This document shows, one piece after another, positions 26,936 through 39,691 of a stretch of DNA of 64,000 nt. The DNA is from Sulfurimonas sp. (GTDB lineage: Bacteria; Campylobacterota; Campylobacteria; Campylobacterales; Sulfurimonadaceae), in NCBI GenBank assembly GCA_028684815.1, contig JAQUFE010000005.1:1-64000 (forward strand). The letters run 5' to 3'. Made by a program: the position numbers and the translations under genes. The notes beneath the pieces are model-generated. The model saw only the letters and a program-made list of their open reading frames with translations. It searched no databases and was not told where the DNA came from. The stretch's first letter is position 1. The number at the start of each line of letters is the position of its first letter.

Positions 26936-27142
26936 TTGAATACTCTGAACAATTATTAAGTTGGATCCTGAATCAAGTTCAGGATGACAGCTTGTTTGTT
27001 CAGGATGCGCGTTCCATCATTCCGTTATTAAGTTGGGCACTGAATCAAGTTCAGAATGACAGCTTATTTGTTCAGGATGCGCGCGTTCCGTCATTCCGTG
27101 CTTGACACGGAATCTAGTTTATAGATTCATCAGATAGTTCAA
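26936..27142 (+). repeat. MITE-like element, copy A (left flank of CRISPR-Cas island)
   Basis: A 207-bp non-coding element bounded by TTGAA and TTCAA. Its ends form imperfect ~42-bp terminal inverted repeats (shared words CTGA, AAT, TAT, AA, GAT and TCAAG). Inside are CCTGAATCAAG/TTCAGG and ATTCCGTG/CACGGAAT palindromes, with repeats of GATGCGCG-TTCC. The inverted orientation of the same element lies at 39501-39691, and a third copy at 48159-48341. No transposase is present, so it is non-autonomous if mobile. Confidence 0.8.
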
Positions 27143-27842: not shown

Positions 27843-27901
27843 ATAGAGACCTCCTTTTGTAGTCCAAAATACGCATCTCTAAGCTTATAGTTCCTAAAAA
27901 A

Positions 27902-30900
27902 TTCCTAAGCTACCTATTCGGCAGTTTACCTCTTATAACAATCTCTCGACCAGAACGAACATTTCTAAGCTACCTATTCGGCAGTTTACATTCGGCAGTT
28001 TACATGATGAAAGAAGAGAGAGCCTTAAATTAAAATTTCTAAGCTACCTATTCGGCAGTTTACACTCAATCATCTTTAGAACTAAACTCGCTACATTTCT
28101 AAGCTACCTATTCGGCAGTTTACCTTCTCCTAGAAAATCTACAGCTCCGTTTGTCTTTCTAAGCTACCTATTCGGCAGTTTACAGATTTAACCGCAACTA
28201 TAATGAGAAGTTTTTTTTCTAAGCTACCTATTCGGCAGTTTACGGATGATGATATGGTGGATGAAGAGGATGACGTTTCTAAGCTACCTATTCGGCAGTT
28301 TACGGAGTCATAAAGCACAAAGATGACCCATGGTGTTTCTAAGCTACCTATTCGGCAGTTTACAAAGCCTTTACCGTAGCTAAAGTCACTCGTATGTTTC
28401 TAAGCTACCTATTCGGCAGTTTACTACTTTAAGGAAGTAGTCCTTCTCAGCGGAGTTTTCTAAGCTACCTATTCGGCAGTTTACGCAATGACATAAACAC
28501 TACACTCAAAGAGTTTTTTCTAAGCTACCTATTCGGCAGTTTACTAATACTTTCAGAGTCACAAAAGACTCTAAAATTTCTAAGCTACCTATTCGGCAGT
28601 TTACAAGCTGATGTTTCTTATATCCCCGTCATGAATTTTCTAAGCTACCTATTCGGCAGTTTACGAACAGATGATAAGGGTAGTCCAATTTCATGGTTTC
28701 TAAGCTACCTATTCGGCAGTTTACTTCCACCAGTTCCAGTTTCATCACCAGAAATTTTTCTAAGCTACCTATTCGGCAGTTTACATGTATGTGTAAATTC
28801 TGACGGAACTGGAGATTTTCTAAGCTACCTATTCGGCAGTTTACATGGTGACGGAACTGGAGATGGTGACGGAACTTTTCTAAGCTACCTATTCGGCAGT
28901 TTACTTCCACCAGTTCCAGTTTCATCACCAGAAATTTTTCTAAGCTACCTATTCGGCAGTTTACTTCCACCAGTTCCAGTTTCATCACCAGAAATTTTTC
29001 TAAGCTACCTATTCGGCAGTTTACAACTTTTATAAATAAGAGTAGAACTAGTGACTTTTCTAAGCTACCTATTCGGCAGTTTACTAAACGCTACTAAGTG
29101 TAGAAATAGGTTTGGTTTTCTAAGCTACCTATTCGGCAGTTTACTTCCACCAGTTCCAGTTTCATCACCAGAAATTTTTCTAAGCTACCTATTCGGCAGT
29201 TTACAGTATGATTTTGAGTAATTAAAATAATTTCATTTTCTAAGCTACCTATTCGGCAGTTTACTAGTTCTGTTTTAGTTGGTTTAGCTGTGTTTTTTTC
29301 TAAGCTACCTATTCGGCAGTTTACCAGATTATCCTACGGATGAGTGCCCAATAGATTTTCTAAGCTACCTATTCGGCAGTTTACATCTCCAGTTCCACCG
29401 TCACCAGTTCCACCATTTTCTAAGCTACCTATTCGGCAGTTTACTTAAAAGTAAATTTCTCATAAGTCTCGTTTTCTTTCTAAGCTACCTATTCGGCAGT
29501 TTACAAAAGGGTGTAGCCCTCATGATTTCTTTGTGATTTCTAAGCTACCTATTCGGCAGTTTACGTTTAGGGATGAATATCATAGCGTGTAAATGCTTTC
29601 TAAGCTACCTATTCGGCAGTTTACATGGTGATGGTGACGGAACTGGAGACGGTGATTTTCTAAGCTACCTATTCGGCAGTTTACTAAAAAGAACTAAAAA
29701 AGAAGTTAATGATTATTTTCTAAGCTACCTATTCGGCAGTTTACACAACAAGCTTTAAATCTAACGAAACGTAATCTTTCTAAGCTACCTATTCGGCAGT
29801 TTACAAGTATCTGGAATTGGTACGATGAAAGAAATTTTTCTAAGCTACCTATTCGGCAGTTTACTTTTGAAAGATACAGAATATTTATTTCATCTTTTTC
29901 TAAGCTACCTATTCGGCAGTTTACGGTACTAAGGGGTGTTAAAAAAGCGACCTTGTTTTCTAAGCTACCTATTCGGCAGTTTACATCATCATATATAATC
30001 TTTGAAGTTTTAAACTTTTCTAAGCTACCTATTCGGCAGTTTACAGAGTAAAAATCTTCATTTGTAGCCTTATTTTTTTCTAAGCTACCTATTCGGCAGT
30101 TTACAACTGGAGATGGTAACGGAACTGGCGGAACTGTTTCTAAGCTACCTATTCGGCAGTTTACTACTTGTGAGTCTGGTTTTACTTATAATGTTTGTTT
30201 CTAAGCTACCTATTCGGCAGTTTACTAACTATGTTCGTTAAACAAATTGTCCCAAAATTTCTAAGCTACCTATTCGGCAGTTTACTTCCACCAGTTCCAG
30301 TTTCATCACCAGAAATTTTTCTAAGCTACCTATTCGGCAGTTTACTAGCGTGAAGATGAGGAACGCCACTTTTATGATTTCTAAGCTACCTATTCGGCAG
30401 TTTACCTATAAATCCGAATATCAGGTAATCGATACAATTTCTAAGCTACCTATTCGGCAGTTTACAATTAAGCGAAACTTCTTCAAATTAAACAAGATTT
30501 CTAAGCTACCTATTCGGCAGTTTACTTTTTATGTTTCTCTTTTTATCTTCTGCAAGATTTCTAAGCTACCTATTCGGCAGTTTACTTATTGTATAATACA
30601 CTTATACTTGTTTATAATTTCTAAGCTACCTATTCGGCAGTTTACTATTTAGAAGCTCTTATAAAAGAGTCAGGCGATTTCTAAGCTACCTATTCGGCAG
30701 TTTACAAAGGCTATTTAGCTCTCGTTTGTAAGTCGATTTTCTAAGCTACCTATTCGGCAGTTTACAATTTAACCGCTGCACAAAAAGAACAAATAATTTT
30801 CTAAGCTACCTATTCGGCAGTTTACACGCTATTACTGTCGGTACTGCTGTACTTACTTTTCTAAGCTACCTATTCGGCAGTTTACATACTGATTATCAAG

Positions 30901-31065
30901 AGATATTTGGCGGAGCTTTTCTAAGCTACCTATTCGGCAGTTTACATAAATAAGTAATTATTTCTAATTCTAAAGTCTTTCTAAGCTACCTATTCGGCAG
31001 TTTACTGGCACTATCTATACACCAAAGCCAGTCAACTTTTCTAAGCTACCTATTCGGCAGTTTAC
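27902..31065 (-). CRISPR. Type I-F CRISPR array, 53 repeats and 52 spacers
   Basis: A 28-bp repeat recurs with a 60-bp period; on the minus strand it begins GTAAACTGCC and ends GTAGCTTAGAAA. Spacers are 32 nt, except 33-nt spacers at 28364-28396 and 30165-30197 and one of 46 nt at 27990-28035 that includes a 14-bp partial repeat. The repeat stem is CTGCC/GGTAG with one G-U pair, as for Cas6f. Transcription is from the csy4 side (31065) towards 27902. The terminal repeat (27902-27929) has a T-to-C change. One spacer is present five times, and ten spacers derive from one Gly/Asp/Thr-repeat sequence. Confidence 0.98.
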
Positions 31066-31204: not shown

Positions 31205-31792
31205 CTAAAAACATGGAACAGTTGAAGTTTTACTTAAACCATAAGTTGAAAAGAGACCTTCTTTTGGCTCTTTACTTATCTCTTTTACTATGAAAATCTT
31301 CATTTTGTTTTGGCTTGATAAACTATCTATATTGACATATGGAAGCTTATTATCAGTTTTTTTCTTTTCCTCGTCAAACTCTTCATAGTTTTTCAAGGCC
31401 TCCTCAAAACTAATACCTTTCCTTTTAGCTTGTCTTCGTGCTAAGCGTTCACTATTATATTTAAACTGCTTCCGACTAAAGGTTGCATAGTTTTTTACAT
31501 CGTTTGGAACTTCTTTTATCTCATCTATTTTTACATAGTCTAAAAGATTTTTAAGTATCTCTTCTACCCTCAAAAGCTCTAAATCCTCTTTTGCATATGA
31601 AAACAAACGAAGAGTATCCCCCAATGGAAAAAGTTCTTTATAGTGAGGAAATGCAAAGCCCACTCTGCATAACCCTTCACTGTTTTTTTGCTCAACCAAT
31701 GCTAGATGCATCTGTGCATAAACCTTTTGCCAGATAAATCCGAGCGATATTTCAGTATCGCCCAGTAGTTTTATATCTATATAATACTTCAT
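31205..31792 (-). CDS. cas6f: Cas6f (Csy4) crRNA endoribonuclease
   Basis: 195 residues, the usual size. The candidate catalytic histidine is in VYAQMHLALVE (His29/30 region, as in Pseudomonas Csy4). An arginine-rich helix (SERLARRQAKRKGIS, about 112-126) is the element that grips the repeat hairpin. The C-terminal GLFSTYGLSKTSTVPCF matches the Gly/aromatic end of the family. It cuts the repeat after the stem and stays bound to the crRNA 3' end. It is the last gene of the csy operon, facing the array leader. Confidence 0.95.
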   Translation of the reverse strand: MKYYIDIKLLGDTEISLGFIWQKVYAQMHLALVEQKNSEGLCRVGFAFPHYKELFPLGDTLRLFSYAKEDLELLRVEEILKNLLDYVKIDEIKEVPNDVKNYATFSRKQFKYNSERLARRQAKRKGISFEEALKNYEEFDEEKKKTDNKLPYVNIDSLSSQNKMKIFIVKEISKEPKEGLFSTYGLSKTSTVPCF

Positions 31793-31797
31793 ATCAG

Positions 31798-32811
31798 CTA
31801 CTTTGAGCTCTCGCCAAAAACACCGCCACGAACTAATACAGCCATAACATAGTGTTCTTCATCTCTACTATCAAGTTTTGTACCTGTAGCAAACTTATCA
31901 AAGAGAGTAAAAAAGTCTTGCTTCTCTTTTGGTGTTCTAAAAGCACGACCTAGATTAGTAACAGCTCCGTATGGCTCTATCGCTATAGGTCTATTTTCAG
32001 TAGCATATTCACTGTACCAAGTATCTATGCTTCTTAGGGCATTTCCTAGTTTTTGAGAGTGCATTGATGCTACCTCCTCTACAGTATAAAGAATTTTACT
32101 TTTTTTACTTTGACCTTTATCTAGCACCAGCTCTTCACTAGGATATACCTCTTGAGCTTTTCCAACTTGCGCATAACAAGTAATGTCAAGCATCAAAAAC
32201 TCATCTTCACTAGAGAGTGCGTTAGCTATTTTTTCGCCTAAAGATATTGCATCTTTATTTGTACTTTCCATAGTGCGAACACCAAACTCTTTTGCATCAA
32301 ATGTCCATATTTCATTGCTCTTTAAATCTTTAACTTGAACTTCTATCTGCTCCGCTCCGACACGATTTCGCCATAAAAAACGGGCATTTGCTAAGTTTAG
32401 GGCGTATCTGCGACCTAGTTCATTAAACTTTTCTTGCTCAATATATCCACCAACTGCTTCCTTATAACTCTCTAAAAAAGTAGCATCATTACAAGCTGAT
32501 GGCTCTTTTATACCACCTAACACTTTAAGAGTAAAGTGAAGCTTTAGCGTATCTTGCTCCTCTGCCAATGCACAACTATCTACTGTTTGAAGATTTGCTT
32601 TTTCAACTTCAGCATTGAGCTTTAAAGGGTCATTTTTCACCGCGTCTTTAAGACGATTACTTATCGTTCCTCTTACAGACTTCTCAACCAACTTTAAAGG
32701 AGTAGCTCTATCTTTGTTATCCCAAGTTGTTCCATACATATAGCCATCAGATGGTACCAATTTTTTCTCAAACGCTAAAACAGATGCGATTGCATTTTTT
32801 ACTTTTGCCAT
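31798..32811 (-). CDS. csy3: Cas7f (Csy3) backbone subunit
   Basis: 337 residues, as expected for the subunit that coats the spacer in six copies in the Csy complex. Characteristic stretches are GYMYGTTWDNKDRATPLKL near the start, NLANARFLWRNRVGAEQIEV in the middle and PYGAVTNLGRAFRTPKEKQD near the end. It is encoded five bases before csy4 and 15 bases after csy2, so it belongs to the same transcript. Confidence 0.96.
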   Translation of the reverse strand: MAKVKNAIASVLAFEKKLVPSDGYMYGTTWDNKDRATPLKLVEKSVRGTISNRLKDAVKNDPLKLNAEVEKANLQTVDSCALAEEQDTLKLHFTLKVLGGIKEPSACNDATFLESYKEAVGGYIEQEKFNELGRRYALNLANARFLWRNRVGAEQIEVQVKDLKSNEIWTFDAKEFGVRTMESTNKDAISLGEKIANALSSEDEFLMLDITCYAQVGKAQEVYPSEELVLDKGQSKKSKILYTVEEVASMHSQKLGNALRSIDTWYSEYATENRPIAIEPYGAVTNLGRAFRTPKEKQDFFTLFDKFATGTKLDSRDEEHYVMAVLVRGGVFGESSK

Positions 32812-32826
32812 TTAATTTTCCTTTTG

Positions 32827-33705
32827 TTATTTATTTTGTTCACATAGATAAAGAGAGTTCTCTTCATCATAACTATAACGCCACAATATCTCATCTATAG
32901 ATGTTATTTTGTATGGCATCTTAAACTCTCCAAGAGTCACAACACTCTCTGCAAAACGGTGTGGAGTCTCTGCATCTCGCTGATTTTTAGCTTTACCTAT
33001 AGGCGAAATGCCTTGAAATCCTACAGCTATTGGAACTATCCAGCCTGAGACCTTTCGCTCACTCTTCCAAACTACTTTTTCATCTTCTTTTGTGCAATTA
33101 TGATGCAATGAAAGATAATCTAAAATCGCTTCAACTGCATCTGCTCCGCTTCCCATAGCCTCTAGCATCAAATCTTTTCTCTCTAGAAGAGCATAGCTAG
33201 GCATAAGTTTTTTTCTAAAACGAATCAACTCATCTTCTTCTTCATCATTGAGCCTAGACAGTGTAGGTTTTTTACATGACAAAATATCTCCACCAGCCAT
33301 CTTCATACGACCTAGCAAATGATGCTCTACTCTCTCTATAAATCTCTCTTCATCTATCTTCTCTAATCCCTCTAGCTCTACAACCAAACTCACATCAAGG
33401 TGTATCCGAGCTTCTTCTATAAATGAAGGTCGATTACCATCTTTATCCAGAGGATTACCAGTTCCCACAATAGAGTGAACATAGTCTCCAACACCTTTAA
33501 AAGTTTGCAAATCTGCCTTATGACTTAGCACTCCAGTCGCTTTAAACCGCAACGATTCAAAACCATCACTATTTAACTTTCTCTGCAGAGCATGTGTTGC
33601 ACCTAGCCATGCAGTCATAGCAGGAAAACCTATAGTAAAAGGACTTGAGAGTGCATTTGCATTGTGTACCTTTATGTGTGGTAATAACAGTAATTGCCTT
33701 GTCAT
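32827..33705 (-). CDS. csy2: Cas5f (Csy2) subunit
   Basis: 292 residues. Typical Csy2 features are LLLPHIKVHNANALSSPFTI at the N-terminus, GFPAMTAWLGATHALQRKL and a late VPIAVGFQGISP segment. Csy2 pairs with Csy1 to hold the 8-nt crRNA 5' handle (CUUAGAAA here). Its ATG overlaps the csy1 stop (ATGA), indicating coupled translation of the Csy1-Csy2 heterodimer. Confidence 0.95.
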   Translation of the reverse strand: MTRQLLLLPHIKVHNANALSSPFTIGFPAMTAWLGATHALQRKLNSDGFESLRFKATGVLSHKADLQTFKGVGDYVHSIVGTGNPLDKDGNRPSFIEEARIHLDVSLVVELEGLEKIDEERFIERVEHHLLGRMKMAGGDILSCKKPTLSRLNDEEEDELIRFRKKLMPSYALLERKDLMLEAMGSGADAVEAILDYLSLHHNCTKEDEKVVWKSERKVSGWIVPIAVGFQGISPIGKAKNQRDAETPHRFAESVVTLGEFKMPYKITSIDEILWRYSYDEENSLYLCEQNK

Positions 33706-34949
33706 TGAAGCTCCTCCCTATGTTCATGTACAACTTTTGCTATATCTTTTTTCTCATCAGCCCCAAATTTTTTATTGATTCGTTTTTCATAGCTTTTAAT
33801 GATCCAGTCAGTTATATCATTTTCTAGTTTATCAAGCCATACATCATCATTCTCTCGCTCTTCTTCATACTCATGAGATAGCCATATCTTTTGATGAGAC
33901 TTTAGTTTTGAATTTTTCTCATAATATTGTTCTGATGAGACTAAGCGAAGAGACCACATTTTTTCAATGACTTTATCCATTAACTGCCCATATCTACGGA
34001 TGCGAGCATCTCTAATATCAACATTATTATAATCTGTACTAGCAATGCGATGAAGTACATCAAAAATTTCTGAAACTTCCCAAGCTCTTATAGATTCTTC
34101 AAAGAAATTACTTTTAGGAAAGTATATCTCTCGCTTTTTTAGTACTGGTGGCATGGAGCGAAGCAGATAAGCTTTTCCTCCATTCTTAGAGTTCAATACA
34201 GAGATATTTTGGGGTTTTGTTCCACCAAAGCCAATAGTTGTTAAACCATAGATTTCACTGTATCCACTCTCAGAATATTCACCTTTTTTTCTTTTGTCTC
34301 GTTTTTCTTTGACCTCATCGCCAAAACGCATAGTGTCAATACGCTTTTTAAGATGGTACATAATCCCAGAATTACTTAAAATAGAGAGCTGTTCATAGTC
34401 ATCTTTTACAGGAAAATAAACCTGCTTAATCTTCTCACTTGTAACTAAATCATTTGATGAGCTTATCATCTTTAAAAAACCATCTCTTAAACTTTCATAT
34501 CTATGATTTTCGACAGTTAAAAGTGATTTTGCAAGCTGACTCTCTAGCTCTATATGTTTTATAAGTATTTGACCATCACTCATTTCAAGATTTAAAAATT
34601 TATGAACATCTAAAGCTGCTGCATTTCCTAAGGCATCGCTCTCTACTTCAACATTTCCACTTCTAAGTAGCCCATCATTTTGCCTCTTTGCATCTGCAAT
34701 AATAGGTGTTACATAGCCATTTTTGTTTTTTCTTGAACTTGGATGAGAAAAAGTACAAGGATGTGTTGATATAGAGATCTGCCCTGCTCTTTTTGCAGCA
34801 TCAGGAAGCCACTTTTTGAGTGACAATAACTCTTCACACTCGGCTTTAAGTCTTAACACTTCTTCATCAGACATAGAACTTGTCTGATTTTTTTTCATCC
34901 AAATCTCTTTCCTTTCGTCAAAAAATGTGGATATTGCTTGTTCTATCAC
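33702..34949 (-). CDS. csy1: Cas8f (Csy1) large subunit
   Basis: 415 residues, normal for Csy1. The N-terminal IEQAISTFFDERKEIWMKK, the THPCTFSHPSSR stretch and the GFGGTKPQNISVLNSKNGGK motif (about residue 235) are family hallmarks. Csy1 recognises the PAM. The start is GTG at 34947-34949, with a strong AGGAGG seven bases upstream. Its 223-bp upstream region holds the diverged repeats, mini-spacer and matching target described separately, so its expression may be set by the Csy complex itself. Confidence 0.95.
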   Translation of the reverse strand: MIEQAISTFFDERKEIWMKKNQTSSMSDEEVLRLKAECEELLSLKKWLPDAAKRAGQISISTHPCTFSHPSSRKNKNGYVTPIIADAKRQNDGLLRSGNVEVESDALGNAAALDVHKFLNLEMSDGQILIKHIELESQLAKSLLTVENHRYESLRDGFLKMISSSNDLVTSEKIKQVYFPVKDDYEQLSILSNSGIMYHLKKRIDTMRFGDEVKEKRDKRKKGEYSESGYSEIYGLTTIGFGGTKPQNISVLNSKNGGKAYLLRSMPPVLKKREIYFPKSNFFEESIRAWEVSEIFDVLHRIASTDYNNVDIRDARIRRYGQLMDKVIEKMWSLRLVSSEQYYEKNSKLKSHQKIWLSHEYEEERENDDVWLDKLENDITDWIIKSYEKRINKKFGADEKKDIAKVVHEHREELQ

Positions 34950-35037
34950 AATATTTCCTCCTTCGAGTGAATTAAAATTACTTATTCAGTATTTTTTCAC
35001 TTAAAATCATAACAATATAAACTTAAGTTACTCTTAC

Positions 35038-35059
35038 AATCATATTATATTTATTCAGG
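35038..35059 (-). promoter_or_regulatory. Self-target of the mini-crRNA, with CC PAM, over a csy1 -10 box
   Basis: On the minus strand CC (35059-35058) is followed by TGAATAAATATAATATGATT (35057-35038). This equals the mini-spacer at positions 1-18 apart from positions 6 and 12, the sixth-base positions that do not pair in class 1 crRNA-DNA hybrids. CC is the type I-F PAM. TATAAT (35049-35044) inside the site is the best -10 candidate for csy1. The match is seen; regulation is inferred. Confidence 0.8.
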
Positions 35060-35066
35060 CATAATA

Positions 35067-35142
35067 GTTTTTTGCTGCCTATTCGGCAGTTTAATTTCAT
35101 ATAATATTAATTCATTTCTAAGCTACCTATTCGGCAGTAAAA
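35067..35142 (-). CRISPR. Mini-CRISPR: two diverged repeats around a 20-nt spacer (CreR-like)
   Basis: The first repeat in transcription (35142-35115) matches the array repeat at 25 of 28 bases. It keeps both the CTGCCGAATAGGTAG hairpin and the full CTTAGAAA 5' handle. The 20-nt spacer (35114-35095) reads TGAATTAATATTATATGAAA. The second repeat (35094-35067) matches at 22 of 28. It has a perfect CTGCC/GGCAG stem but a destroyed handle, so only one crRNA could be made, about 48 nt instead of 60. It lies just after the cas2-3 stop and before csy1, on the operon strand. Confidence 0.85.
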
Positions 35143-35172
35143 TATTATGTTTCGGATTGTATCTTATTTTTC

Positions 35173-38100
35173 TTATACTCTTACCAACCCAAACTGGTCA
35201 CTATACTCAAACTCATCACCTTGTTTATAGATTACAAAATTCAACTCTCCATATCTGAGTGATACTTCCTCTTTTGTTTGATTATTTTTTGAGGCATACT
35301 CTTCTACTAGTTCATCATAATCTCGATGTAACCATAATCTACTTATATCTATGTTATCCTCATCTGCTCTACTTATCTTCAGCATCTCTTCTCTATTTAC
35401 AGGATATCCTGATTCGTAAGTCATGAGTTTGCCATACTCATCTAACTCTGAAAAGAAGTAGTTGTCTTCTTTTTCGTTATAGACTAAAAAAATATTTGTA
35501 TTTTTTAAACTCTCCCTAAAAGGATGTAAGTAAAGAGGATGTGCTGTTAAAAACCAACTCTCATTTAAGTAGCCCTCAAAAGTATCAGCCCCTTTTTTAT
35601 CAAAAGAGGTTAAATCTTTTTGTGTCATGCAGTGTTCTAAATCAATTAAAGAATTTTTAGCATCTAGCTTTTGAGGTTTTTTGATTCTTGCTTGTGCATC
35701 TAGCCTGTTAGCAATTTTATCTGTATCTATAAGCTTTGAAATACTATGAGTGTTTAGAGTGATATTTTCCTCATACCCAGGTCTATTAAAATATCTCTTC
35801 CCTTCTTCATCACTACCCTTAAAAGCTTTATAGTTATACTGCATCAAGCCAATATTTGGTGCTACTATCTCACCTACTCTATGTCTTCGTACACGCCCTG
35901 CAAGTTGGATGATAGAGCGATAAGAAGATGGTTCTATAATTGCCCAGTCAAAATCATGATCTCGCCCTACTTCTTCCACAGGTGTTGCAACCAAAACAAA
36001 TATAACATCTTGTGTTTTACTTGCATCTATATGTGATCGGATTATTTTATCTTTAAACGCTTCTGGCTCTTTACCCTTACTCTCTTTTCTCTTCAATACA
36101 GCATCGAGATGCTTTTCTTGTTCATGTCGCAAAAGCAACACTTGACTTGAGTGATAAGCCATAACCTTTAGCTCTACATCATCATTATCAACCATCGCTA
36201 AGTATCTGCTCAAAGCTACACAAGGTGGAGTATTAGCTACACGAACAACCCCAAAAGAGATGCGTTTAGCACTTTTTTTATCTATAGTGTGATGCTCTTG
36301 ATGTTTTTGTATAATCGCATCTTTTATCTTAGAGAAGTAAACATCTGTTTTTGTTTCATCTTCACTCTCTTGCATCTCTTCATGGCACTCGACTATCTCA
36401 ACTTTTCTTTTTACAGGCTCTTTTTCTAGGTTTTGTATTCGCTTATCTATAAAATTGTTATGACTCTCTTCATACATTTCTAGTGCTTTTTTACTTTCAA
36501 AACTATCTATCTCTTTTACATCTGTTTTAAACTCATCTATCCATGCACACACTATTTTATTTTTCGATTCATGACTCTTTACATAGAGTTGCCAGCCTTT
36601 TTTATAGGCGTTGAAATAACCTTTCGCTAAATCAGGAGGAATTGTAGCCGATGAAATCATCACACCACGCCCTAGCATCCCAGCTAAGTGAACCAATCTA
36701 CCTATAGCGATAAGGTCAGAACCACTAAAGTCATCTATCTCATCTATAACTAAGTCAGAAGAGAGCATCCGCAAACTAGGCAATATATATCGTCCACCTT
36801 TTTTAGTGGTCACTGCACCCATGAGGTGGTCTATTGTGCAGACTAACACAGGTGCATAAAGAAAGTTTCTATCTCGCTCTTTTTTTAAAACAGTTTTTAA
36901 TGCATCATCTGGAATATCAAACTCATAGATAACTTCTTCATCAAGCAGACTCTCTAATGATTCAGAACCAAAATCACTTTTTTGTTCATCTTCTTTTTTT
37001 TGGTTTTCATGAAGTTCCATAATTGCTTTTGAACCTATCAAAACTGCCAAATCTTCTTTACTTAACTCTATCCTCTCTCTATACTCATCTCCAGTTTGTA
37101 AAGTCAAAGTTCTAAGCCCCAAAGCTAAAACATATCGCAAAGAGTCTCCATCTTTGGAGATGGCTTGCATCACCTTAGCATTTGCAAAAGTTTTTCCACA
37201 ACCTGTACTTGCCATATTTACAGCAAAAAAACCTCGTTTTTTAGACTCTTGGCTCATCACTTCTCTTATCTTTTTAACCGCTTTATCTTGCCAAATAAAC
37301 TCTTTGGGGCTTGCTCTTTTTAAGACTTTGTTGTTTTCAACGAAAGGAGATTGAGATTCAAACATAGGAAGATAGTGAACAATTTGCATAGCACTTTTAT
37401 ATACACCACATAAGTGATCATCTAGTTTTTGATTTAGCTCTTTAGTTTTGGGATGTGTGTTTGCAAAAAGGCCTTTGGTGTCTTCTCTAAGGGAGGTTTT
37501 ATCTTGCGATGAGTAGTTATGGTCACCTAGCATCAAACAGAGGCGACAATGATGTAAAACGGCTCTATAACTGCCATCTTTAATAGCTTCATCCAAGAGA
37601 GATTGTTGTGCTAAGAGTTTCGTTGCCCAGCGTTTGACAAGAGTTAGCCATTTAGATGAGTTACTCAAAAGTCCATGAGGAAATATAAAACATTGTTCTA
37701 AGCGTTTTTGATACTCTTTTTCATCCCTTTTATTTTCATATCCCCAAGATTTTTTAATATACTGAAGTGTATCCTCTATAGAAAAAGAAGCAACCCCATT
37801 CCATCCATCATCAACTATATTTTTTTTAGCAGTAGCTACACTTGGTAGTTTATGATGAGAGACTATCAACCACATTATAAGCTGTGCAAAAGAAGGAAGA
37901 TTTTGCAATACTCTTTCATCTACATCTTTAGCACTATCCATCAGTAAAGTCTCATCTATAATACCATCACTCAAACGATGCAACCAGTCCTCTTTATTTT
38001 GTGAAATAAAAATATTTAGCAAGATGCAACTTATCCACTCATGACGAATCGGGTCAGCTTTGATTTTGCTGTTTGGTTTTAACTTCTCTTGAAAAAGCTT

Positions 38101-38487
38101 TGTAGATTTTCCCCAATCATGAAACAAAGCAGAGAGTGCAGTTAGTGCTTTGATGAGGGGTATGTATTTCCATTCGCTCTCTTTATAGTTATCTAAGATA
38201 GTTTTAGCAGTCCAATGAACAGGAACAACTCCCTCCTCGTTAAATCTATCCATATTGCCAACCACCCACAAAAAGTCACTTCTACTACGACTTCGTATCC
38301 AGTGGCAACTTACAGCTGTACTTTTTGAAGCAGTTTTTCTAAGTAGTTTAAAAACAGCTCCTAAACCCTCCCTAGTAATAATTGTCCGCCATGTATTGTC
38401 TCCGATGCGATTGGCAAAACTATCTAAAATTCTTCTTGTTTTTTTAAGAGCATTTTTTTCACACTGTGAGACAAAAATAACCATCAT
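35173..38487 (-). CDS. cas2-3: Cas2-Cas3 fusion of type I-F
   Basis: 1104 residues. The first ~95 residues are the Cas2-like domain (MVIFVSQCEKNALKKTRRIL). The HD nuclease follows with LSALFHDWGKSTKLFQ near residue 135. The helicase has STGCGKT (Walker A, about 425), a DEID-type Walker B (LVIDEIDDF, about 580), an SATIPP motif III and a motif VI-like QLAGRVRRHRVGE. The fusion links adaptation (with Cas1) to target degradation. It overlaps cas1 by four bases. Gene content (cas1, no tniQ) marks a canonical I-F1 system rather than a transposon-borne one. Confidence 0.97.
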   Translation of the reverse strand: MMVIFVSQCEKNALKKTRRILDSFANRIGDNTWRTIITREGLGAVFKLLRKTASKSTAVSCHWIRSRSRSDFLWVVGNMDRFNEEGVVPVHWTAKTILDNYKESEWKYIPLIKALTALSALFHDWGKSTKLFQEKLKPNSKIKADPIRHEWISCILLNIFISQNKEDWLHRLSDGIIDETLLMDSAKDVDERVLQNLPSFAQLIMWLIVSHHKLPSVATAKKNIVDDGWNGVASFSIEDTLQYIKKSWGYENKRDEKEYQKRLEQCFIFPHGLLSNSSKWLTLVKRWATKLLAQQSLLDEAIKDGSYRAVLHHCRLCLMLGDHNYSSQDKTSLREDTKGLFANTHPKTKELNQKLDDHLCGVYKSAMQIVHYLPMFESQSPFVENNKVLKRASPKEFIWQDKAVKKIREVMSQESKKRGFFAVNMASTGCGKTFANAKVMQAISKDGDSLRYVLALGLRTLTLQTGDEYRERIELSKEDLAVLIGSKAIMELHENQKKEDEQKSDFGSESLESLLDEEVIYEFDIPDDALKTVLKKERDRNFLYAPVLVCTIDHLMGAVTTKKGGRYILPSLRMLSSDLVIDEIDDFSGSDLIAIGRLVHLAGMLGRGVMISSATIPPDLAKGYFNAYKKGWQLYVKSHESKNKIVCAWIDEFKTDVKEIDSFESKKALEMYEESHNNFIDKRIQNLEKEPVKRKVEIVECHEEMQESEDETKTDVYFSKIKDAIIQKHQEHHTIDKKSAKRISFGVVRVANTPPCVALSRYLAMVDNDDVELKVMAYHSSQVLLLRHEQEKHLDAVLKRKESKGKEPEAFKDKIIRSHIDASKTQDVIFVLVATPVEEVGRDHDFDWAIIEPSSYRSIIQLAGRVRRHRVGEIVAPNIGLMQYNYKAFKGSDEEGKRYFNRPGYEENITLNTHSISKLIDTDKIANRLDAQARIKKPQKLDAKNSLIDLEHCMTQKDLTSFDKKGADTFEGYLNESWFLTAHPLYLHPFRESLKNTNIFLVYNEKEDNYFFSELDEYGKLMTYESGYPVNREEMLKISRADEDNIDISRLWLHRDYDELVEEYASKNNQTKEEVSLRYGELNFVIYKQGDEFEYSDQFGLVRV

Positions 38488-39500: not shown

Positions 39501-39691
39501 TTGAACGCTCTCATTAATCTATAAACTAGATTCCGTATCAAGCACGGAATGACGGACATGCGCCATCATAAACTTGACGAAACGAGCGTCATCCTGAACT
39601 TGACGAAACGAGTGTCATCATGAACTTGACGGACATGCGTCATCCTGAACTTGATTCAGGATCCAACTTAATAATTATTCAGAGCATTCAG
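39501..39691 (-). repeat. MITE-like element, copy B (right flank of CRISPR-Cas island)
   Basis: A 191-bp element that is the reverse-complement counterpart of 26936-27142: TTGAA-CGCTCTCATTAATC at one end and a reverse-complement CTGAA-TGCTCTGAATAATT at the other. It has the same ATTCCGTATCAAGCACGGAA and CCTGAACTTGATTCAGG palindromes. Its interior carries extra ACTTGACGAAACGAG units. It sits 57 bases upstream of cas1 and 14 bases past the mnmA stop. Confidence 0.8.

Follow-up and report, generated by a model that had tools for sequence, protein, structure and literature searches.

A probable CreR-type self-directed mini-crRNA inside the operon of a Campylobacterota type I-F1 CRISPR-Cas system

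A mini-CRISPR between cas2-3 and csy1

The 64,000-nt stretch of DNA analysed here (the window) comes from a Sulfurimonas sp. genome of 2.27 Mb in 101 contigs (G000) and carries, on the minus strand, a complete type I-F1 operon in the order cas1, cas2-3, gap, csy1, csy2, csy3, cas6f and array. Membership in type I-F1 was supported by Cas1f, Cas3f, Csy1, Csy2, Csy3 and Csy4, each of which scored above its NCBIfam cut-off, and by the presence of I-F repeats. Upstream of the gap lies cas2-3 (cas3f, 35173..38487), and downstream of it csy1 (cas8f, 33702..34949), with a GTG start and an AGGAGG ribosome site, opens the putatively regulated effector operon, the remainder of which is formed by csy2, csy3 and cas6f (csy4) at 31205..33705. 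The main CRISPR array of 53 repeats (27901..31061) would be the source of competing crRNAs. Within this array the spacer TTCCACCAGTTCCAGTTTCATCACCAGAAAT is present several times (28696-29205), which suggests array duplications, and at 27960-28064 the spacing is 74 nt compared to the usual 60 nt and includes a further, partial repeat end, ATTCGGCAGTTTACA. Short repeats also flank the CRISPR-cas region on both sides (39550-39654 and 26953-27083, with 26-nt and 72-nt spacing).

The cas2-3/csy1 gap is 223 nt long, in a region of 24% GC, and contains in order a -10-like box, a first pseudo-repeat (PsiR1), a 20-nt spacer, a second pseudo-repeat (PsiR2), CC, a target of the spacer, a second candidate promoter, a small hairpin and the csy1 ribosome site, all read here on the minus strand. 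Compared with the main-array repeat GTAAACTGCCGAATAGGTAGCTTAGAAA, PsiR1 (TTTTACTGCCGAATAGGTAGCTTAGAAA, 35115..35142) has kept the Cas6f hairpin and an intact 5′ handle CTTAGAAA, the spacer is TGAATTAATATTATATGAAA (35095..35114), and PsiR2 (TTAAACTGCCGAATAGGCAGCAAAAAAC, 35067..35094) has a perfect CUGCC/GGCAG stem-loop for Cas6f and a degenerated handle. The initial annotation of this DNA had described exactly this anatomy, with two diverged I-F repeats around a 20-nt spacer, the leading one with hairpin and exact handle and the second with a perfect stem and no handle, and it is correct to the base. A search of the whole genome found copies of the repeat core outside the main array only in PsiR1 and PsiR2. 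The Rfam CRISPR-DR4 model matched both once the threshold was relaxed (E 2e-5 and 0.24, which miss the curated cut-off), and at the gathering threshold Rfam gave no match anywhere in the window. As expected of a CreR, these degenerate repeats around one spacer adjoin the cas genes of an intact system.

Csy4/Cas6f cleaves at the 3′ base of the repeat stem. Because this cleavage site is known and the Csy4 gene is present, a mature crRNA of 48 nt is predicted (35075..35122), consisting of an 8-nt handle, the 20-nt spacer and a 20-nt 3′ hairpin, with the 5′ sequence CUUAGAAAUGAAUUAAUAUUAUAUGAAA... When the double-repeat precursor was folded by itself, its two hairpins paired with each other, which has little bearing on Cas6f-bound RNA.

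The target of this guide, TGAATAAATATAATATGATT (35038..35057), lies 37 nt downstream of the spacer in the csy1 promoter region, next to a CC PAM (35058..35059). Spacer and target mismatch at exactly positions 6, 12, 19 and 20, so that the match proposed earlier for positions 1-18 except 6 and 12, with a CC PAM, is upheld. Such partial complementarity beside the correct PAM in the promoter region of the system's own cas operon is again a feature of CreR, with the reservation that the csy1 start is unmapped. A chance likeness of AT-rich DNA had been named as the main alternative and has some grounds in the low GC content of the region and in the finding that, when the PAM is ignored, 2/2000 shuffles of the region equal the real match. 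However, none of 5000 dinucleotide shuffles of the region gave an equally good CC-flanked site, and a pattern of CC and the spacer core, with any base permitted at positions 6 and 12, has a single occurrence in the 2.27 Mb genome (spacer excluded, up to two mismatches allowed); hence, chance no longer deserves that place.

Spacer and target in related loci

Searches with csy1 in the Campylobacterota yielded 21 loci, and class-level genome sampling found no additional csy loci. The same arrangement of a spacer and a downstream CC-flanked match is found at 10 of the 21, including the window, in two families; an eleventh locus (G140) is interrupted by a contig end. The spacers are mostly unlike between loci, often with only 3-8 of 17 positions in common, but each matches its own target (145/150 scored positions), with much lower values for cross-pairs. 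Random spacer-target pairings were as good as the real set in 1/200,000 cases, and 0/5000 shuffles equalled the real match at each of the 10 loci. Congeners give the same picture by paired changes: positions 3 and 8 distinguish the spacer of G000 from that of G147, and the identical two changes separate their targets, and G510 and G661 show paired spacer and target changes at positions 4 and 14. It had been set beforehand that independent drift of spacer and target in relatives would count against the proposal; they co-vary instead, the CC is fixed, and the handle is exact in seven of the ten loci and deviates by a single base in the remaining three. This joint change of guide and target is what makes it very probable that the system throttles itself.

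In eight loci (including G094, G067, G314 and G682) the element is absent, and in all eight csy1 directly follows cas2-3. In the csy1 tree, carriers repeatedly stand beside non-carriers (G000/G094, G388/G314, G510/G067, and G698 next to G705 and G682). Since the element-free loci have csy1 abutting cas2-3, gain or loss of the guide goes along with that of a separate csy1 promoter region.

The guide itself may be transcribed from a promoter of its own. In the window, a putative -10 box, TACAAT (35156..35161), lies 13 nt ahead of PsiR1, although there are no TSS data, and a -10-like box read by eye precedes the first repeat by 6-14 nt in all ten Campylobacterota loci, at exactly 13 nt in G000, G147, G001, G227 and G661 and at 6-14 nt in the other five. 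This suggests that CreR probably has its own promoter and, given the near-constant distance of the boxes in all ten loci, that it need not depend on operon read-through; read-through from cas2-3 as the sole source of CreR is unneeded given these boxes.

At one of the loci, G001 (L006), a decayed second copy of the spacer, ATACAAACGGAATCAACAGA, lies directly after PsiR2 without a PAM and is a trace of a duplicated repeat-spacer unit.

Mismatch pattern and guide length across type I-F

When about 85,000 species genomes were scanned for pairs of I-F repeats 12-29 nt apart, at least 117 stretches were obtained, which are counts and not frequencies; a few records overlap with the Campylobacterota set (L055 is G227 and L067 is G433). 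Each spacer of 17 nt or more was then compared with the sequence within 500 nt of it, and its best match was taken whether or not a PAM was present. Among the matches listed, 84/118 spacers reached at least 13/17, compared to 4/118 shuffled spacers, and CC preceded 83 of the 84 targets found in this PAM-blind way. With CC-flanked targets at 83 further loci among the matches listed, and with none of 5000 shuffles succeeding at each of ten loci of different sequence, the chance explanation is refuted, and we regard it as practically ruled out.

Among the same listed matches, there was not a single mismatch at positions 1-5 and 7 in the 84 targets, and position 6 was mismatched in 58, position 12 in 53 and position 18 in 58 of them. 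Type I effectors flip bases 6, 12 and 18 out of the guide-target duplex, and the frequent mismatches therefore sit where they cost nothing. The initial annotation had assumed that positions 6 and 12 are free as flipped-out bases, which this pattern bears out and extends to position 18. The same pattern decides against a decaying array fragment, in which the likeness of spacer and target would be left over from a duplication and be without function. All three pseudo-repeats, including the one in the csy1 leader described below, are indeed degenerate, and the target and third repeat look like a copied spacer-repeat unit. A relic would nevertheless drift evenly, which is incompatible with positions that never mismatch and others that mostly do among the matches listed, with the fixed CC, and with spacers and targets that change together. 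We therefore rejected a relic on the positional constraint, and consider it very improbable.

The lengths of the natural guides are also constrained, as they cluster at 20 and 26 nt (66/83 within 1 nt, p 2e-6, among the matches listed), with a smaller group at 14 nt. In the Aggregatibacter I-F1 system, guide length follows 6N-4, where N is the number of Cas7f subunits, guides of at least 14 nt form complexes and bind CC-flanked DNA, and an R-loop of 26 bp or less does not trigger Cas2/3 (PMC7296934). The natural clustering at 20 and 26 nt is at the 6N-4 lengths of whole Csy3 (Cas7f) subunits, as if the guides were counted in Csy3 subunits. What the elements described here have in common with the shortened-guide Csy complexes of that study is 6N-4 guides, fewer Cas7f subunits, CC-flanked targets and no triggering of Cas2/3, but the guides used there were artificial truncations, whereas here natural guides cluster at the same lengths (PMC7296934). 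The natural guides remain below the length needed for cutting, and the earlier idea that a short match allows binding without degradation by Cas3 is borne out by the guide lengths together with the published data.

In most of the scanned loci among the matches listed, the mini-CRISPR lies in the cas2-3/csy1 gap in the opposite orientation to that in the window; the sense orientation is the Campylobacterota form and is also found in L066 and L081 (Desulfobacterota). In Proteobacteria and others (L010-L126) gap mini-CRISPRs are widespread, mostly antisense and with a CC target about 40-180 nt before the spacer, and it is undecided whether they are CreR or CreTA. The class extends to the I-F loci of E. 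coli (L021, L082, L143-L148), with the same indecision between CreR and CreTA outside the Campylobacterota: an I-F cas3f-csy1 gap with such an element was matched in 237/5426 complete E. coli genomes, and in the alleles a change at spacer position 5 is mirrored in the target (TAGAT/TAGAT, TAGAG/TAGAG), whereas position 6 is free to vary. In some of the E. coli carriers, csy1 or cas3f is broken.

The csy1 promoter region and its proposed repression

The initial annotation had placed the target over a TATAAT upstream of csy1. This motif does lie within the target (35049-35044), but that it is the real -10 box is unproven, and a rival candidate, the extended -10 TGTTATGAT (35006..35014), inferred as an alternative csy1 promoter from sequence comparison, sits 23 nt farther downstream and has the equivalent TGCTATCAT in G147, G140 and G433. 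The csy1 start thus remains uncertain between these two -10 candidates, and csy1 is the only gene ahead of either of them in the window. A sigma-70 pattern scan of the window was of no help in finding a csy1 promoter (1 site compared to 2.5 expected). A -10 box at TGTTATGAT would place the target just upstream of the -35 region and off the core promoter, which weakens the case for repression, as does the fact that relatives differ in where the target lies with respect to the promoter. A -10 box at this site would also put the target at about the usual place for the binding of an activator, so that the guide complex might activate csy1 or, instead of repressing it, tune spacer acquisition from its own locus. 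However, in G001, G227, G510 and G661 a near-consensus promoter, read by eye, ends about 6-8 nt ahead of the target (in G001, TTGACA-16-TATAAT ends 7 nt before it), and a bound complex would therefore cover the start site, where it should block and not activate; in G388 and G279 the target covers a -35-like box, TTGACT and TTGACA, respectively (by eye). An activating or acquisition-tuning role is hence very unlikely.

The reading that we favour, with considerable confidence on comparative grounds, is that the element encodes a CreR-type self-directed mini-crRNA which represses csy1-csy2-csy3-cas6f of the type I-F1 system. CreR has been reported experimentally for types I-B, I-E and V-A (Liu et al. 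2023, Cell Host Microbe, cited here through PMC13131331, PMC12737573 and PMC12948488). As far as these accounts describe it, CreR shares with the element in the window a mini-CRISPR, partial complementarity to a cas promoter and, as would be expected here, effector-dependent autorepression; unlike it, the window element belongs to type I-F, lies within the operon between cas2-3 and csy1 and has a 20-nt guide, and its target, which is followed by a third repeat hairpin, has no more than the effector half of the cas operon downstream of it. A literature search found no account of an I-F CreR, of the intra-operon place, of the length clustering or of the leader hairpin, although I-F cases in the supplement of Liu et al. 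are not excluded. The mechanism class is known.

According to this proposal, CreR would be transcribed from its small promoter after cas2-3 and cut by Cas6f to the guide of about 48 nt, which would be loaded into a short Csy complex, with 20 nt corresponding to four Csy3 subunits by the published rule. The short complex would then bind the CC-flanked, imperfect 20-bp site in the csy1 promoter region and block transcription of csy1-csy2-csy3-cas6f, and as the R-loop would be too short to license Cas2/3, the chromosome would remain uncut. Abundant crRNAs from the array, or an anti-CRISPR that disables Csy, would leave less CreR complex and derepress the csy operon; if this is true, an anti-CRISPR or a crowded array turns effector production on. 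The anatomy, the match, the co-evolution, the fixed PAM, the free positions 6, 12 and 18 and the tie between the element and a separate promoter region for csy1 can be read directly from the genomes, but expression, processing, repression and the sensing of crRNA load or anti-CRISPRs are inferred without RNA or reporter data, and in the single I-F1 system examined so far, shorter guides had a weaker effect (PMC7296934). The CreR logic first suggested for this Campylobacterota I-F1 system, with a mini-spacer inside the operon, is therefore supported by the co-variation and the fixed CC, with repression itself inferred, and comparative sequence alone makes a very strong case for CreR in type I-F.

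The nearest published counterpart in this gap is the I-F CreTA of Acinetobacter, in which a 20-nt guide with mismatches at 6, 11 and 18 has been shown experimentally to repress its target promoter (PMC10097628). It shares with the window the cas3-csy1 gap, two pseudo-repeats, a 20-nt guide and a CC PAM (PMC10097628), so that a guide with a CC-flanked partial target in this gap also fits CreTA; the mismatches in the window are at 6, 12, 19 and 20. Accordingly, the guide could act as an antitoxin RNA (CreA), with a toxic small RNA (CreT) in the csy1 leader under the repressed promoter, and the cell would then be addicted to the effector. In Acinetobacter, however, the repressed promoter is that of a divergent toxin RNA, which contains a mini-ORF of 33 bp (PMC10097628), whereas the promoter region targeted here faces csy1, and a search of both strands between target and csy1 in the ten loci gave no mini-ORF of at least five codons with a ribosome site. 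Moreover, a pattern scan of this interval in the window gave no terminator on the strand of csy1, and the leader of 48-116 nt runs directly into the csy1 ribosome site. The absence of a creT-like mini-ORF, which also agrees with the lack of an associated toxin in CreR, disfavours CreTA; small toxic RNAs are poorly conserved and readily missed, and a toxin RNA without an ORF cannot be excluded, so that we consider CreTA unlikely and not refuted.

The csy1 leader contains a hairpin of its own, the third degenerate repeat PsiR3 (UACU-GAAUA-AGUA, 34974..34993), which is found in 11/11 loci with a repeat-like 5-nt loop, 4-5 stem pairs and compensatory changes. Its pairs are kept in 50/55 cases, compared to 25 in shuffles, and its covariation score is 0.41, compared to 0.18 for the best slid control. 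Its likeness to a repeat is not significant at every locus (p from <0.0005 to 0.46), but in G510 and G388 it is almost intact as a repeat, and in G227, G510 and G661 it lies immediately after the target, for which reason target and hairpin resemble a copied spacer-repeat unit. It is conceivable, if doubtful, that the effector operon is under dual control, by CreR-Csy at the promoter and by Cas6f/Csy at the leader hairpin, and that the promoter region originated as a CRISPR unit, in which case the target would be a spacer copy captured along with the repeat downstream of it.

A different organisation of the cas2-3/csy1 gap was observed in two of the 21 Campylobacterota loci, G267 (L135) and G690 (L142), where the mini-crRNA has its CC target directly before its own first repeat and is followed by a gene of 135-137 aa before csy1. 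The product has a PBECR3 nuclease domain (Barnase/EndoU/ColicinE5/RelE-like), with E values of 7e-7 and 5e-5 that fall just under the Pfam cut-off, and this element is a candidate for a protein-toxin (CrePA-like) module in type I-F.
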